A stretch of 64,000 bases of DNA from Armatimonadota bacterium (lineage in GTDB: Bacteria > Armatimonadota > Fimbriimonadia > Fimbriimonadales > Fimbriimonadaceae): positions 1-64,000 of the forward strand of contig JAFDWQ010000004.1 of assembly GCA_018268395.1 (NCBI GenBank). The letters are read 5' to 3'. This document shows positions 1 to 7,829 of this stretch, in pieces. The notes below the pieces were generated by a model. It was not told the DNA's origin and made no database searches. It was given only the letters and a program-made list of their open reading frames with translations. The first letter of the stretch is position 1, and every line of letters begins with the position of its first letter. The position numbers and the translations under genes were made by a program.

Positions 1-15
1 TTTCAAACTGACCCA

Positions 16-495
16 CTACCGAGCCGTCCATCGAAACGCCAGTTTTCCCCCGGCTTCAGGTCTGGAACCGACGACGATCGTCCCATCGGCGCTGACAGCG
101 CTAGCGCTCGACTCTTGCTCTGGAGGGAGGGTCCCCAAATCCTGCATGCCAAGGTCCGTCCAATGGAAGGCTCTGTTTCCAGAATGCGTTCCGCTGACTC
201 CGACCACGACTCTTCCCAGAGCGTCTACCCCGAAAGCCGAAGAGAACGTCCCTCCAGGCAATGTTCCGATATCCTGGAGCTGCCCTGCCGTCCACAGAAA
301 GGCACGTTCACCTGAAGAAGTATCGAAGTGGCCGGCGACGTACGTACCGTGGTAACTGACCGCCCAAGGCTCGAGCCAGTCGCCTCCTTCCATCACACCC
401 AGGTTGATGAGTTCGAGCCGAGCATGGGAGTGAACGGCAATAGCCGAAGCCAGAAGCGCGGTCAATCCGCGGACGACGATGGTGGTCATGTTCAT
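16..495 (-). CDS. Secreted HAF-repeat protein, BlaI-operator controlled
   Basis: Exported protein of 159 residues. The first 25 residues form a signal peptide (TALLASAIAVHSHA). The remainder holds repeats of the HAF type: SSGERAFLWTAG, LQDIGTLPGG, NRAFHWTDLGMQDLGTLP, ASAVSADGTIVVGS. These repeats build propeller-like folds of unknown ligand. It is short for the family and stops right after AFRWTAR, in the middle of a repeat, so it may be C-terminally truncated. It lies 85 bases downstream of the BlaR1-like gene and has its own promoter (-35 TTGCAT, 17-base spacer, -10 TACAAT) carrying two copies of the palindrome found at the repressor promoter. It is therefore probably the regulated output of the system. 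Its molecular function is unknown. Confidence 0.75.
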   Translation of the reverse strand: MNMTTIVVRGLTALLASAIAVHSHARLELINLGVMEGGDWLEPWAVSYHGTYVAGHFDTSSGERAFLWTAGQLQDIGTLPGGTFSSAFGVDALGRVVVGVSGTHSGNRAFHWTDLGMQDLGTLPPEQESSASAVSADGTIVVGSRPEAGGKLAFRWTAR

Positions 496-508
496 AATCT
501 ACACATCC

Positions 509-556
509 GATGACAGTTGTCGTCATTATTGTAGCGACAGTTGTCATCAAATGCAA
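509..556 (-). promoter_or_regulatory. HAF gene promoter with two BlaI-type operators
   Basis: Reading the minus strand, TTGCAT (556-551) and TACAAT (533-528) are separated by exactly 17 bases. A GACAnnTGTC palindrome lies inside the spacer (533-548, core GACAGTTGTC) and a second lies just downstream of the -10 box (509-524). Either site would block polymerase when bound. The same palindrome occurs at the repressor promoter near 3,000. Classic BlaI/MecI operators have the related form TACAnnTGTA, which supports the assignment. Confidence 0.7.
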
Positions 557-580
557 GAGGCATGGACGAACCAGCGAAAT

Positions 581-2605
581 TTACTTGGAGGCGAGGAGCG
601 TGAGAACGGCAGGAACGGTCCGTCCTGCAGTCGTGATGCAGGCTGCGACGCTTCCGTCCTCTCCTAACCCGAAACGTACGTCCGTCCAGTCCGGATCCAC
701 TGGCAGACCACCCACGACGCCAGAGTGGGGCCCTATCAGTTGGTCCAAGTCGTGGACCGCCATGTCCGGCGTCCACAGGACCGTAGTGCTCTGACCCGTC
801 CGCCTGTCGAATGCGATCCCTAAAATCCAACCCGCTGAATTGATCCGGCGGGCGACTCCTTCGGGATATGCTCTTGGGAGCGGGAGTTCAAGTATGCCGG
901 TTGCCTTCGTCCAACAGAACGGCTTACGGCCATTGATCGTGCCTGACGACCCCACGGCGCTCGAACTGTCGTTGACCCCAAAAGCGAGGGTCTGATCGGA
1001 TCGCGCCAAAAAGCCAATGTCGTGGCACGTTTCATCAGGGCTGATCAGGAACGACCGTCTCTCTGCCTGTGGAAACTGGAACATTCCCTGAGGCGAGCCG
1101 ATGGCGATGGCCTCGCCCTTGGAGTTCACTCCATGGGCTTCAGACGAATAGTCGCAGTAAACAGGCAGTTTGAGGTTGGTCGGATTCTGCCCTGGTCTCT
1201 TGATCCACGCCCGCTGAACATCGGACGTCCCGACGAACGTGCCGAGGTCGTTCGTCCCTCGGCACCATCCGCCTTGCCCGATCGGATGAGGGACTTTCTG
1301 GACTTCGGTACGCCCCGGTAGCCAGGCCGCCCCATGAGCGCCCCCAAAGTAGGAGTAGGTCGCCATCCCGCAAACCGTGCCGGCCTTCGAAACGAAGAAC
1401 CCGCACGAATCGGGAGTTTCGGAATCCCCTTCTAGCCACTGGTAGTTCCCTGATGTATCGATCCGAGCGGCGCGCCTGATCGTCCGGGGTTTCTCAAAGT
1501 TCACGACTACTTCGCCGGGCGGTCCGAACCCTGCCGCATAGCCTGACGTGAAGCCGACGGGAACTGGCAACACCCTGACCGAATACGTAAGTTCGTAAGC
1601 CCGCACGGGCGCATCGGTCCCCAATCTCGGCGGTGCGGTCAGCACCAATTTGACCGGTACCAGTAGGGATAGAGACAAGACCGTCGCGACGATGTTAGAA
1701 AAGCGCCCGACCGACGGGGCGGACGCTGCGAACAGTGCACGGATTCGAGTCTCGATCTCTCGTTTGGAAGCGGCCGTCCCATAAGCGACGAGTCCTCGCG
1801 GATCAGGAAGGCCGTCCTTCGAGGCGATCCGCAGTAGGAGCCGCGCATATCGTTCGCGTACTTCTGCCTTCTTAGACACGACGGCTTCGTCGCAGGACTG
1901 TTCGGTCAAGACCATGTGGTGCCTCACGGCCCACCAGACCAACGGGTTCCAAGGGATCAGGAACAGGACGGAGAATGGAAGGCAGGCCCATGCCGAGTCC
2001 TTGACCCGGTAGTGGTGGAGTTCGTGCGCGATGACGAGTTCGACGTCGCCATCCTCCAGCTTCGCGATCAAAGGCTCAGGCATAACGACGGCTTGTTTCC
2101 GGAACCCTACGATAACTGGACCAAGCGCGGTCACCGACTTTCGCAACATGGGCACGGTCCAGGCCCCGACCCTCTCGGCCGCCAGGTGATACCTCGTCAA
2201 CAGTTCGCCGTCGAGGTTCGGCGTGGACGTCATTGCGATCCGGCGGACCTGTGCCAGATGTCGGAGCAATTTGAAGACCACCGTTCCGGCCAAGAGCGAA
2301 ACGGCGAAGAGCCATCCCATGACGAGCCACCTCGGCCACGCTCCCACGTCAAACGTTCCGATCCCGAACGATCCCGGTCGCAGAGGCAAGAAGACGACAT
2401 GCTCGAAGAAAGGCTTAGGAAAACCAAGCAGAAGCAAGAGACACTTAACGAGCGCGATCCTGACGCACCAAAGCTTGGTGCGGGCTGTCGTCCCGGGCAG
2501 CAGACTGCAAATCAAGAGAGCCACGGCTAACGGGAGGGTCGCACCTAGTCCGGCCCAAAACAGCCGATCGACGACTGTTCGGGCAGACTCCCAAACTAGG
2601 GTCAT
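581..2605 (-). CDS. BlaR1-type M56 sensor protease with HAF-like sensor domain
   Basis: Membrane-bound zinc protease of the BlaR1/MecR1 (M56) family, 674 residues. Membrane helices occur at about residues 20-38, 46-62 and 95-115. The zinc motif HELHH is at 194-198 and the downstream acidic ligand is in EQSCDEAVV near 229. A last helix at about 303-325 is followed by roughly 340 exported residues. In BlaR1 that exported part is a penicillin-binding fold; here it has no SxxK-type landmarks and instead shows HAF-like segments (GTNDLGTFVGTS, AHGVNSKGEAIAIGS, AFGVNDSSSAVGSSG, RKPFCWTKATG). It overlaps the repressor gene by 4 bases (ATGA). By analogy, ligand sensing outside would activate the protease to remove the repressor. 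The ligand is not known; beta-lactam sensing is not supported. Confidence 0.85.
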   Translation of the reverse strand: MTLVWESARTVVDRLFWAGLGATLPLAVALLICSLLPGTTARTKLWCVRIALVKCLLLLLGFPKPFFEHVVFLPLRPGSFGIGTFDVGAWPRWLVMGWLFAVSLLAGTVVFKLLRHLAQVRRIAMTSTPNLDGELLTRYHLAAERVGAWTVPMLRKSVTALGPVIVGFRKQAVVMPEPLIAKLEDGDVELVIAHELHHYRVKDSAWACLPFSVLFLIPWNPLVWWAVRHHMVLTEQSCDEAVVSKKAEVRERYARLLLRIASKDGLPDPRGLVAYGTAASKREIETRIRALFAASAPSVGRFSNIVATVLSLSLLVPVKLVLTAPPRLGTDAPVRAYELTYSVRVLPVPVGFTSGYAAGFGPPGEVVVNFEKPRTIRRAARIDTSGNYQWLEGDSETPDSCGFFVSKAGTVCGMATYSYFGGAHGAAWLPGRTEVQKVPHPIGQGGWCRGTNDLGTFVGTSDVQRAWIKRPGQNPTNLKLPVYCDYSSEAHGVNSKGEAIAIGSPQGMFQFPQAERRSFLISPDETCHDIGFLARSDQTLAFGVNDSSSAVGSSGTINGRKPFCWTKATGILELPLPRAYPEGVARRINSAGWILGIAFDRRTGQSTTVLWTPDMAVHDLDQLIGPHSGVVGGLPVDPDWTDVRFGLGEDGSVAACITTAGRTVPAVLTLLASK

Positions 2606-2985
2606 GGATCCTTGTCCGCAAGGCGTCGAACCAGGGCTTCGAGTTCGGTCACATCCTCTTTGGAGAGGCTTCCGGTCTGCTCGATGTAATGGAGGAACGG
2701 TGTGATGGAACCTCCAAGGTGCGTCTCGACAAAACTGCCCACCAGGCTTCCCTCGACGTCGTCGGGGGAGCTCACGACCGAGTAACGAAAGATTTTTTCA
2801 ACGTCCTCCCGTGCCAGAAACCCCTTCCTCCGAAGGCGCTCCATCATCTGCAGAACGGTTCCCCGCGCGTACCCGAGACCGACTCCGTACCCCGCGTGAA
2901 CATCACCGACGGACATGGGTCCGTTCGTAGCGATGTACCGCAGGAGTTCTAACTCTCGAGCACCGATCTTGACGTTGATCTTCAA
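2602..2985 (-). CDS. BlaI/MecI-family transcriptional repressor
   Basis: Small winged-helix repressor of the BlaI/MecI/CopY family. Typical features are ELELLRYIATNGPMSVGDVH (first helices), ARGTVLQMMERLRRKGFLARE (recognition helix and wing) and a C-terminal dimerisation helix with the usual SKEDVTELEALVRRL ending. The reading frame is open back to a GTG at 3006, but that GTG lies inside the operator and its next codons are a perfect TATAAT (3000-2995). I therefore place the start at TTG 2985, nine bases after the -10 box, giving about 127 residues. The stop overlaps the start of the M56 protease gene, so the two are translationally coupled. It is expected to repress its own operon and the HAF gene. 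Confidence 0.85.
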   Translation of the reverse strand: MKINVKIGARELELLRYIATNGPMSVGDVHAGYGVGLGYARGTVLQMMERLRRKGFLAREDVEKIFRYSVVSSPDDVEGSLVGSFVETHLGGSITPFLHYIEQTGSLSKEDVTELEALVRRLADKDP

Positions 2986-2994
2986 GTTCAGCGA

Positions 2995-3014
2995 ATTATA
3001 CGACACTTGTCATC
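2995..3014 (-). promoter_or_regulatory. Repressor operon promoter and BlaI-type operator
   Basis: On the minus strand a GACAAGTGTCG palindrome (core within 3002-3011, extended 2999-3014) runs directly into TATAAT (3000-2995). The half-sites match those upstream of the HAF gene (GAYGACAnnTGTCRTC overall). This indicates autoregulation of the repressor-protease operon. Confidence 0.7.
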
Positions 3015-3037
3015 GAATCGTGACCGGTCTCGGTTTG

Positions 3038-4345
3038 GTGCTGCGATTTGACCGACGATTCGATGATTGCCGGCCGTTATGCTCGACGAGTTACACGTCC
3101 GACTCATGGACGTACGACCACGCGGGGAACCGATCGAACAGCGGCTATTCGTACGACGGCTTGAACAAGATGACCGCCTCGGCCGGTAGCCACTCGTACG
3201 ACAACGACCTCCTCGGTCGGCGCACGTTCCGAGACTGGGGGAGCCAGACGACCGCCGTCAAGTACACTTGGGACGTCCTCGACCGCATGACCGCCCTGCA
3301 ACAAAAGACCAAGGGAGCCACTTACCGCTACCGCGCCGACGGGATGCGGGCGCAGAAGGTGCAAGGGATCCACCTCCAGGTCAGGCTGGACGACCAACAA
3401 CAGGTCTCTGGCTACGACGACGCATGGGACTCGAACAAGCCGACGACCAGGTACTTCTACGACGGCCAGATGCCCGTCTCCGAGATTCACATGGAGCCGG
3501 TCGGGAACTCTACGAGCTTCGAGTACACGTCCTACGTCCCGGGCCCCAGAGGACTCGAAAGCACGACGGTCGGGACGATTTCGTTCACCACGACCTATCC
3601 GCTCTACGACTGCCACGGCAACAACGTCGCGAACCTCAAGAAGGGCTCTTCTGTCGACACTTGGGACTCGAACCTGAACGAGCGCTCTTACGACGCCTGG
3701 GGGACCGTCACCGGCTCCAGCCCAGCGCCCTATCAGCGCTACTGCGCGAGCCTCGGTCACAGGCAGGACGACGAGTCTGCTTCGGGATCCAGTTCGGGCG
3801 ACGGGCTGGTCTATATGCGGGCCAGGTACTACGAGCCTGCGACGGGCAGGTTCGTGAGTGAGGATCCTGCGTTCGACGGATTGAATTGGTACCTTTATGC
3901 TGGCAATGACCCAACAAACTGTAGCGACCCTACAGGAACAAGAAGGACAGTTCAAATCGGGCCCTTCACCTTCAATCTCGACGGTTCTGGCAGCGGCAAC
4001 CACGGCTGGGACTTAGAGATTCTTGATCCGCAAGGTAACAAGATCTTTCATCGATGGGGGGATGGCTTGGAGAAGGACGGATGCATGCTGAAGATTTCTG
4101 AAAGAGTCGTCGAAGCAATTCGACAAGTATTATCTAGTGGGAATCAGTCGAAGATCGCCTTTCTAAGGGGACTCATGGATAAGGGTGGATTTGGTATGTG
4201 GCGAGCCCTTCGAAACGCGTTCAGAGATATCCTCGGCATGGTGTTCCTTTCCTACGCGTACACAAGCGTCGATGCCTACGCCCAGCAGGAACCCGAGGAT
4301 TTCGCTGACACGATCCGTACAATCGGTTCTTGGGGACGAAGGTGA
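3038..4345 (+). CDS. 5'-truncated RHS protein with variable C-terminal tail
   Basis: The frame shows YD/RHS repeats (TYDHAGNRSNSGYSYDGLNK, YRADGMRAQKV) and then the RHS-associated core near 3,790-3,940 (GLVYMRARYYEPATGRFVSEDP, LNWYLYAGNDPTNCSDPTG). A full RHS protein has well over 1,000 residues; only about 430 remain and there is no convincing start, so this is a decapitated 3' cassette. The GTG at 3038 is merely the nearest upstream in-frame start codon. About 125 residues after DPTG are unlike the core and AT-richer than the surroundings, as expected for a swapped polymorphic effector tip. I do not recognise that domain. Its stop overlaps the next gene (GTGA at 4342-4345), the arrangement typical of toxin and immunity pairs. 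Confidence 0.75.
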   Translation: MLRFDRRFDDCRPLCSTSYTSDSWTYDHAGNRSNSGYSYDGLNKMTASAGSHSYDNDLLGRRTFRDWGSQTTAVKYTWDVLDRMTALQQKTKGATYRYRADGMRAQKVQGIHLQVRLDDQQQVSGYDDAWDSNKPTTRYFYDGQMPVSEIHMEPVGNSTSFEYTSYVPGPRGLESTTVGTISFTTTYPLYDCHGNNVANLKKGSSVDTWDSNLNERSYDAWGTVTGSSPAPYQRYCASLGHRQDDESASGSSSGDGLVYMRARYYEPATGRFVSEDPAFDGLNWYLYAGNDPTNCSDPTGTRRTVQIGPFTFNLDGSGSGNHGWDLEILDPQGNKIFHRWGDGLEKDGCMLKISERVVEAIRQVLSSGNQSKIAFLRGLMDKGGFGMWRALRNAFRDILGMVFLSYAYTSVDAYAQQEPEDFADTIRTIGSWGRR

Positions 4346-5226
4346 AAGACGCACTAACACTGTTCTACGGAACAAGGTCAAAGACGTTCATTCCTGGGGG
4401 CCAGACTCTGGTCGAGAGTGAAGAGTTGGGTCGCGCTTCGGCATCGCCTAGGACGAAGAGCAATAGACAGACAGGGCTGAGTGTAGCCGTTGAGTCATTC
4501 TTTATGGACACCTTTCCGGTTACTCGCCGCGAGTTTCTTCATGTAGTTCTCGATTGTCGACTCGCCAGCCAATCTGCCGCTCACCAAATTGATATGGACT
4601 TTTGGGCTCACTTTGATCGCGAACACAAATATGATGACCAAGCACCCATAGTTGCGGTCTCATTCGAGGAAGCTTCTTGGTTTGCGTGGATCTTCGGAGG
4701 TCGCCTTCCGACATTGGCTGAGTGGAATCGGGCTGCGCGTGGAGACGCAAATAATAGCTATCCTTGGGGTCTACAGTTTGACCCGACATTGTGCAATTTT
4801 AGCGACTCGCCTTTTAGTACGGGCCCCGATATTATTGACCATTTGACTAACGTCGATGAATATCCTGGAGGTGCCTCGCAGTTTGGAGTTATGGACTGTC
4901 TTGGGAACTGCCGTGAGTGGACTATGACGCCAGCCGTACCCATTGACTTCATCAATGCATCAAAGATTGAAGATCGTCGGATAGCTGCAAGTTTGTGGAC
5001 AGCCAACATTTCAGAGGTTTACGTCAAGAATGTGGGATTGAATAGTCATGACCGACGCATTGGCTCTACCGTAACCGCGAAGCGATTCAATCGGCATACA
5101 CCGTTCTTACCATCCACTTTCGCCGGTGCCACTGCAAGAGATTTCAGGAACGGATTTCGAGTTGCTTACGACGCGAGCCGCTTAGACGAGGATTCCGTGA
5201 ACTTGATGCAGCAAGTCTGGAAGTGA
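4342..5226 (+). CDS. Formylglycine-generating-enzyme-like (SUMF1 fold) protein
   Basis: 294 residues with the FGE-sulfatase/SUMF1 pattern: FIPGG near the N-terminus, FFMDTFPVTRREF, APIVAVSFEEASWFAWIFGG, GRLPTLAEWNRAARG, NNSYPWG, DEYPGGASQFGVMDCLGNCREWT and a final RNGFRVAY. The canonical cysteine-bearing RGGSW segment of true FGE is not seen, so sulfatase-activating chemistry is doubtful; many bacterial members act as binding or lectin-like domains. The GTG start at 4342 overlaps the RHS stop, so it is co-translated with the RHS tail. This suggests it is a partner or an immunity factor, although the fold is unusual for immunity. Base composition is lower in GC than the chromosome, like the RHS tip, pointing to joint acquisition. 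Confidence 0.75.
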   Translation: MKDALTLFYGTRSKTFIPGGQTLVESEELGRASASPRTKSNRQTGLSVAVESFFMDTFPVTRREFLHVVLDCRLASQSAAHQIDMDFWAHFDREHKYDDQAPIVAVSFEEASWFAWIFGGRLPTLAEWNRAARGDANNSYPWGLQFDPTLCNFSDSPFSTGPDIIDHLTNVDEYPGGASQFGVMDCLGNCREWTMTPAVPIDFINASKIEDRRIAASLWTANISEVYVKNVGLNSHDRRIGSTVTAKRFNRHTPFLPSTFAGATARDFRNGFRVAYDASRLDEDSVNLMQQVWK

Positions 5227-6629: not shown

Positions 6630-7829
6630 TCACTGCTCCGCTTGCGCCTTCCTGAACACGGCGTCGAGCTTCTCCGCCGCCTTGCGCTGCGCCACAGGCA
6701 CCATGTGCGCGTAAGTCCCGGTCGTCAGCGCGATCGATGAATGACCGAGCTGGTCCTTGACGAGGGCGAGCGGCACGCCCTCCGCGACCATGTGCGTCGC
6801 CGCCGTGTGACGGAGCTTGTGGAACGAGACCTCAGGGATCCCCGCCTTGCGGCACAGCGCCTTCAGGTGGTTATGAACGTACTTGGGATCGAGCGGCCGG
6901 CCCTCGGAGTTCAAGAACACGAGCCCGAGAGGGTTCTGGAACGAGTCGCCCAGTTCGGCCTGTAGCCTTGCTTGCCTGAACTTCTCTGCCTCGATTCCCT
7001 CGAGCGCATAGCCGAGCAAAGGGAGGCTCCTTCGGCTTGAGGCGGACTTCACGGACTTGTGAACCAGCTTGCCTTCTACACGCTGGAGCTGTACCCCTAC
7101 ACGCAATGTGGCTTGTTTTGGATTGACAGTATCGACGTCCTGCCACCGAAGACCCGTGGCCTCGCCAATCCGCATTCCGGTTCCGAGCGCGACCAGAAGA
7201 AGGTTCTCGATCGGATGCCCTTTGGCGGCCTCGGCCAGCTTAAGGGCCTGATCCGGATGGAGGTAGACCGGATCGCTCTTCTTCACCTTTGGAGGCACGG
7301 TCTTGACGACGACGTTCTCCGCGACGAGGCCCCACTTCCAGGCTTGGTTCATCGCGGCGCGGAACACCCTGCGGATCCCCGCGACGGAGGCAGGCGAGAG
7401 GGTCACGGTCTTGTCTCCGACCTTACGGGGCTTCCCCTTTTCGTTGAGGAAAAGTTGGATCTGTTCGGCGGTCAGCTTGCGCAAGTCGATGCGGCCGAGC
7501 GCCGGCTTGATGTGCCGATCGACCATCATCACGTAGTAGTCCACGGTCTTGGGCTCCTTGTGGCCACGGACCGTTCCATCGAGCCAACGGTCGAGGAACT
7601 GGCCCAAGGTCGTGCGCTCCGTCGGGACGGTCTTCCCTGTCGTGACGGCCGCCATGGTCTTGTTGAGTTCCTTGACCGCCTCGGCCTGCGACTTGGCGTA
7701 CACGGTCTTGTACTTTGGACGGCCGGTCGTCCCGTCGTATCCGAGGAGCACTTGGGCGACCCATCGCCCGTCCTTCCGTTTGAACACGGAACCGCTGTTC
7801 CCCGCCCTCTTCGATCCGTTCCTTGCCAT
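6630..7829 (-). CDS. Phage-type tyrosine recombinase (integrase)
   Basis: 399 residues. An N-terminal AP2-like arm-binding region (GSVFKRKDGRWVAQVLLGYDG) is followed by a SAM-like core-binding domain (TLGQFLDRWLDG, DYYVMMVDRHIKPALG) and the catalytic domain. Catalytic residues are visible: Arg in GTGMRIGEATGLRW, Lys near KSASSRRSLPL, HxxR in SFHKLRHTAATHM, His in QLGHSSI and the Tyr nucleophile in GTYAHM. The gene looks intact. It reads away from a tRNA-Lys 3' fragment only 160 bases upstream, the usual arrangement of an integrase at the end of a genomic island. Repeated TTGACAGTT motifs lie in its promoter region. Confidence 0.93.
   Translation of the reverse strand: MARNGSKRAGNSGSVFKRKDGRWVAQVLLGYDGTTGRPKYKTVYAKSQAEAVKELNKTMAAVTTGKTVPTERTTLGQFLDRWLDGTVRGHKEPKTVDYYVMMVDRHIKPALGRIDLRKLTAEQIQLFLNEKGKPRKVGDKTVTLSPASVAGIRRVFRAAMNQAWKWGLVAENVVVKTVPPKVKKSDPVYLHPDQALKLAEAAKGHPIENLLLVALGTGMRIGEATGLRWQDVDTVNPKQATLRVGVQLQRVEGKLVHKSVKSASSRRSLPLLGYALEGIEAEKFRQARLQAELGDSFQNPLGLVFLNSEGRPLDPKYVHNHLKALCRKAGIPEVSFHKLRHTAATHMVAEGVPLALVKDQLGHSSIALTTGTYAHMVPVAQRKAAEKLDAVFRKAQAEQ

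Follow-up and report, generated by a model that had tools for sequence, protein, structure and literature searches.

A BlaR1-BlaI type module with a predicted HAF beta-propeller sensor in Armatimonadota

The BlaR1-BlaI system is the textbook example of how a signal from outside the cell leads to cleavage of a repressor. To our knowledge, the system is known almost only for beta-lactams. BlaR1 cleaves BlaI directly once its outside sensor is engaged (PMC9834060). The locus described here lies at the start of an Armatimonadota contig (C4), of which the first 64,000 nucleotides were analyzed (the window). It shares with BlaR1-BlaI and MecR1-MecI an M56 protease with an HExxH motif, an exported C-terminal sensor, an overlapping blaI gene, and palindromic operators upstream of the regulator operon as well as of a target gene. 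It differs in its sensor (a predicted seven-bladed propeller rather than the class-D beta-lactamase/PBP fold), in its operator core (GACA-NN-TGTC), and in its target, which is a secreted propeller protein rather than a beta-lactamase or PBP2a. What is new here is, on the best reading, a sensor variant of the BlaR1-BlaI system. The gene order and the domains are read directly from the DNA, with coordinates given as window positions:

581..2605, minus strand: M56 metalloprotease/antirepressor with a C-terminal HAF beta-propeller sensor (predicted), 674 aa, single open frame
1733..2257, minus strand: Peptidase_M56 domain, residues 117-291, with AHELHH and EQSCD motifs (PF05569, E 2.3e-23)
584..1594, minus strand: exported sensor, about residues 338-674, predicted seven-bladed beta-propeller with diverged HAF repeats (AlphaFold2, structure matches, motif scan)
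2602..3006, minus strand: blaI-type repressor (BlaI/MecI winged-helix), 134 aa as called (Penicillinase_R, E 1.4e-17)

The first-pass annotation, made from the letters of the window, called the product of the first gene a BlaR1-type protease. This assignment is confirmed, as the M56 domain lies in one unbroken 674-aa open reading frame at the coordinates originally given. The domain has both the HExxH motif and the downstream E/D site of BlaR1/MecR1-type proteins, and the catalytic His, Glu, His, and Asp columns are invariant in an alignment of nine fusions of M56 and HAF domains. The last hydrophobic segment is at about residue 325. With the NCBIfam model blaR1_generic the protein reaches a score of 69.7, below the cut-off of 400. 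As in BlaR1/MecR1-type systems, a BlaI-family repressor is co-encoded and operators are present at both regulator and target. The blaI gene overlaps the start of the M56 gene by 4 nt, and its own true start is probably further in than the called GTG since the GTG overlaps an operator. A promoter scan of positions 400-3200 found no consensus promoter.

The C-terminal part of the protein had been described as lacking penicillin-binding motifs and carrying HAF-like segments. A motif scan found neither SxxK nor KTG in the sensor (only a lone SGN is present), and no Pfam family was found after about residue 325. The HAF assignment draws its support from homologues. Taken alone, the match of the window sensor to the HAF family model TIGR02913 is marginal (15.1 bits, E 0.017, residues 541-569) and falls below the cut-off of 22.65, but the 674-aa protein aligns over its full length with M56 proteins whose HAF domains are beyond doubt, which strongly supports its own HAF identity. 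The homologous sensors score far above the family cut-off, with 98-192 bits (E 2e-28 to 6.5e-58) in seven of the eight. The repeat of the HAF proteins (TIGR02913; partly Pfam DUF3466) appears in diverged form in the sensor and clearly in the neighboring output protein, whereas elsewhere in the window genome HAF repeats form free exported proteins that are not fused to M56. Literature on HAF proteins is almost absent.

Structure prediction, which had been proposed for the sensor, yields a beta-propeller and not a PBP fold. The AlphaFold2 model, computed from a nine-row alignment (the window sensor and eight homologous sensors), is nearly all beta with a pLDDT of 82.7 and a pTM of 0.85. In our reading, its strand order fits seven four-stranded blades with an N-terminal strand closing the ring. 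Foldseek ranks propellers, or proteins that contain one, at the top. In VIA-align comparisons, the model matches CylK (Z 26.8, 296 aligned, 3.5 Å), virginiamycin B lyase (Z 23.0, 245 aligned, 2.2 Å), and G-beta subunits (Z 20). Identity to the structural matches is low (5-12%), and a PDB sequence search with a HAF sensor returned nothing meaningful. The propellers of virginiamycin B lyase and CylK are the top matches (Z 22-27), but these proteins are enzymes and their identity of 9-11% indicates a shared fold only. The sensor is thus predicted to be a toroid of four-stranded blades. Another membrane signaling enzyme with an extracellular propeller sensor is PknD of Mycobacterium tuberculosis (Foldseek match 1rwi), which pairs a kinase with NHL repeats where the present protein pairs an M56 protease with HAF repeats. 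The SxxK, SxN, and KTG set of a penicillin-binding sensor is incomplete and a propeller is predicted in its place. Because SxxK and KTG are missing and a propeller is predicted, the M56-HAF protein falls outside the BlaR1/MecR1 subfamily of beta-lactam sensors. Nothing in the sequence points to beta-lactams as the ligand.

The M56-HAF fusion is not confined to the window genome. A search for other fusions and their neighbors, suggested by the first-pass annotation, found them in at least 10 other Armatimonadota genomes (G102, G009, G010, G016, G017, G021, G022, and G024, plus the named records L103 and L108, the last of which is frame-shifted within the M56 part). Matches in a whole-protein search of 291 Armatimonadota genomes span both parts of the protein, the best being G102 (residues 28-627). 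Further fusions were found by reading those loci and by an alignment-based scan of named genomes. The latter returned eight matches covering the whole protein, all from Armatimonadota, while the remaining rows hit the M56 part only (L151 slightly past it). A contig scan with the single protein as query found no relatives, and the fusion alignment was needed. In nearly all of the loci, blaI is upstream of or adjacent to the M56-HAF gene. Two candidates, G126:C8 and G128:C20, were rejected as they are HAF proteins without M56. Paper searches of the open-licence literature found no description of M56-propeller fusions, an absence that is not proof. A recurring branch of BlaR1-type receptors with a propeller sensor in Armatimonadota is the firm result of this analysis.

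Operators shared by the HAF gene and the blaI-M56 operon had also been reported, and they are real, with three exact sites:

3001..3015, plus strand: operator 1, CGACACTTGTCATCG, before the blaI-M56 operon and beside a TATAAT-like box; exact match to CGACANYTGTCATCR
535..549, plus strand: operator 2, CGACAGTTGTCATCA, before the HAF gene; exact site
508..522, minus strand: operator 3, CGACAACTGTCATCG, before the HAF gene and paired with operator 2; exact site

These are the only exact CGACANYTGTCATCR sites in the 3.7 Mb genome; since the pattern was derived from the three sites, the count shows exclusivity and not independent rediscovery. Two one-mismatch matches occur elsewhere in the genome, compared to one for the reversed control. 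Independent support comes from paired GACANNTGTC sites, which are present in 20 of the 291 Armatimonadota genomes and have an M56-like gene (HExxH, long open reading frame) nearby in 14 of the 17 further loci that were read. The GACANNTGTC sites are candidate BlaI operators. Many Armatimonadota M56-blaI loci (L201-L216) share paired GACANNTGTC operators, and a gene for a small exported protein lies between the operators and blaI in L211, L214, and L215. An extra operator-like site at G010:C529 has no clear target.

The closest relative (G102/L070) has blaI, an M56-HAF gene, and the same double operator before a gene for a secreted PD40 propeller (PD40 repeats, E 4.8e-60). This protein and the HAF output have homologous C-terminal domains (profile E 2.8e-21 with a profile built without the matched sequence; best of 500 shuffles 0.037). 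The more distant M56-HAF lineages have the operator GACTACNNNNGTAGTC before blaI, in most of them at a -35-like TTGACT. In L101 and L102, DUF4349 genes carry or share GACTACNNNNGTAGTC operators, and a VIT-domain gene in L108 has an operator-like site; some of the copies at these DUF4349 and VIT genes have one mismatch. In most M56-HAF loci outside G102, L101, L102, and L108, no targets beyond the operon itself were found. Across these lineages the HAF sensor persists while the putative target changes.

The neighboring gene itself had been taken as encoding a complete secreted protein of 159 residues with HAF repeats. The repeats are present, as the 5' part scores 75.4 bits against TIGR02913, above the family cut-off. 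The protein is not complete, and is rejected as such, because, at the edge of the contig, an insertion sequence interrupts the gene:

16..495, minus strand: 5' part of the secreted HAF-repeat protein, signal peptide and about three blades (TIGR02913, E 2.4e-21)
1..20, no strand assigned: insertion sequence terminus, TTTCAAACTGACCCACTACC; recurs at other contig ends
21..28, no strand assigned: 8-bp target-site duplication, GAGCCGTC; repeated on the C8 side of the insertion
L076:4917-5921, minus strand: 3' part of the HAF gene at the end of contig C8, same strand as the 5' part

Contig C4 begins with bases 1-20 of the window, and these 20 bases are found again at each end of C8 and where C11 and C5 begin. 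The inserted element supplies the last residues and the stop codon of the 159-aa open reading frame, and the remainder of the gene lies at the C8 end. The duplication GAGCCGTC flanks the element on both sides, and without the element the site gives one continuous frame of 495 aa, identifying the 159-aa frame as a 5' fragment. The restored protein has a signal peptide, seven HAF repeats, and a C-terminal domain. Since the gene is disrupted, function of the output in the window strain is doubtful. The element is present again at the starts of C11 and C8, where a separate 8-bp stretch (TGATAGTC) is duplicated. The assembly is broken by an insertion sequence that occurs in several copies and duplicates 8 bp of its target. 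The structure of the output was predicted from its window part; the fragment is modeled as about three propeller blades (pLDDT 81.2) with weak TolB matches. About ten HAF genes are present in the genome, six of the loci scoring above the family cut-off, and the HAF family is expanded.

We propose, with a probability of about 0.72, that the locus is a BlaR1-BlaI type module in which a seven-bladed HAF beta-propeller replaces the penicillin sensor and which controls its own operon and a secreted propeller protein. The signaling steps are proposed by analogy with BlaR1. Without signal, BlaI would sit on the GACANNTGTC operators before its own operon and the neighboring HAF gene. The propeller would bind an extracytoplasmic ligand, which may be a molecule or protein of the cell surface or the environment, and in its bound state would switch on the cytoplasmic M56 zinc protease. 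The active protease would cleave BlaI, allowing expression of the operon and of the secreted propeller protein with its C-terminal beta-rich domain. The output is probably controlled by the M56-BlaI pair. If the HAF gene were instead a chance neighbor and not a target, the system would regulate only itself. The genome holds roughly ten HAF genes, and in most distant M56-HAF loci the blaI operator is the sole operator found, but the 85 bp in front of the HAF gene contain two exact operators, and in G102 a pair of operators is retained upstream of a gene whose product has the same C-terminal domain. We consider such a coincidence very improbable.

The first-pass annotation had further suggested that sensor and output recognize the same ligand or each other. 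In such a feedback design, the receptor would measure its own secreted product, with free HAF or PD40 propellers competing for the ligand or binding the sensor, and the level of output would feed back on BlaI cleavage. Both proteins are HAF-type, both read as seven repeats when intact, and the predicted folds do not differ, the sensor being modeled as a propeller and the output fragment as propeller blades. The output gene is under the same operators as the sensor operon, and the G102 output is again a secreted propeller. However, the sensor does not resemble its neighbor in particular. Of all HAF or related sequences to which the sensor gives any match, 21 in total, the output ranks 18th (25.4 bits, E 0.17; 28.5 bits over 61 residues when the 159-aa part alone is compared). 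The top rank goes to the G102 sensor (56.6 bits), followed by other M56-HAF sensors and unlinked HAF paralogues at about 35-50 bits (the unlinked paralogues at 37-40). A tree of HAF domains, dominated by long branches, rejects neither sensor and output as sisters (p 0.127) nor all M56 sensors as one group (p 0.058). In addition, the G102 output is PD40-type and not HAF, and the operators of distant M56-HAF operons are at DUF4349 or VIT genes. By sequence comparison, sensor and output are relatives but not a recognizable pair; they likely share a fold family and, judged by the operators, a regulon. The proposed mutual or common recognition has no specific support and is unlikely. Alternatively, the propeller may, like some BlaR1 relatives, respond to peptidoglycan or to damage of the envelope, with cell-surface or wall proteins as outputs. 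A peptidoglycan fragment is described as an input of Bacillus licheniformis BlaR1-BlaI (PMC3305447), and the targets found look exported. The sensor, however, has no wall-binding domain, and envelope stress is a special case of the proposed module in which the ligand is guessed. We regard it as a tentative possibility.

For the proposed module with an exchanged sensor, the common scaffold of sensor and output most likely means that propellers serve here as a generic binding scaffold and that neither protein copies or monitors the other. A branch that combines a propeller sensor with operators of its own and secreted targets would make the protease-repressor core a general signaling chassis, and it gives a concrete set of receptors for a ligand search.

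The window genome encodes a second M56 protein (L075:4089-7013, plus strand; G000:C1), in which a long low-complexity C-terminal part replaces the HAF domain. Beside the blaI gene, an open reading frame at 2915-4345 (plus strand) encodes YD/RHS-like repeats and a core-like end without a Pfam match at 0.001; its called start is doubtful and overlaps the region upstream of blaI. It is followed by a gene for a formylglycine-generating-enzyme-like protein (4330-5226, plus strand) and a tyrosine recombinase gene (6630-7829, minus strand), the latter suggesting a nearby mobile element.
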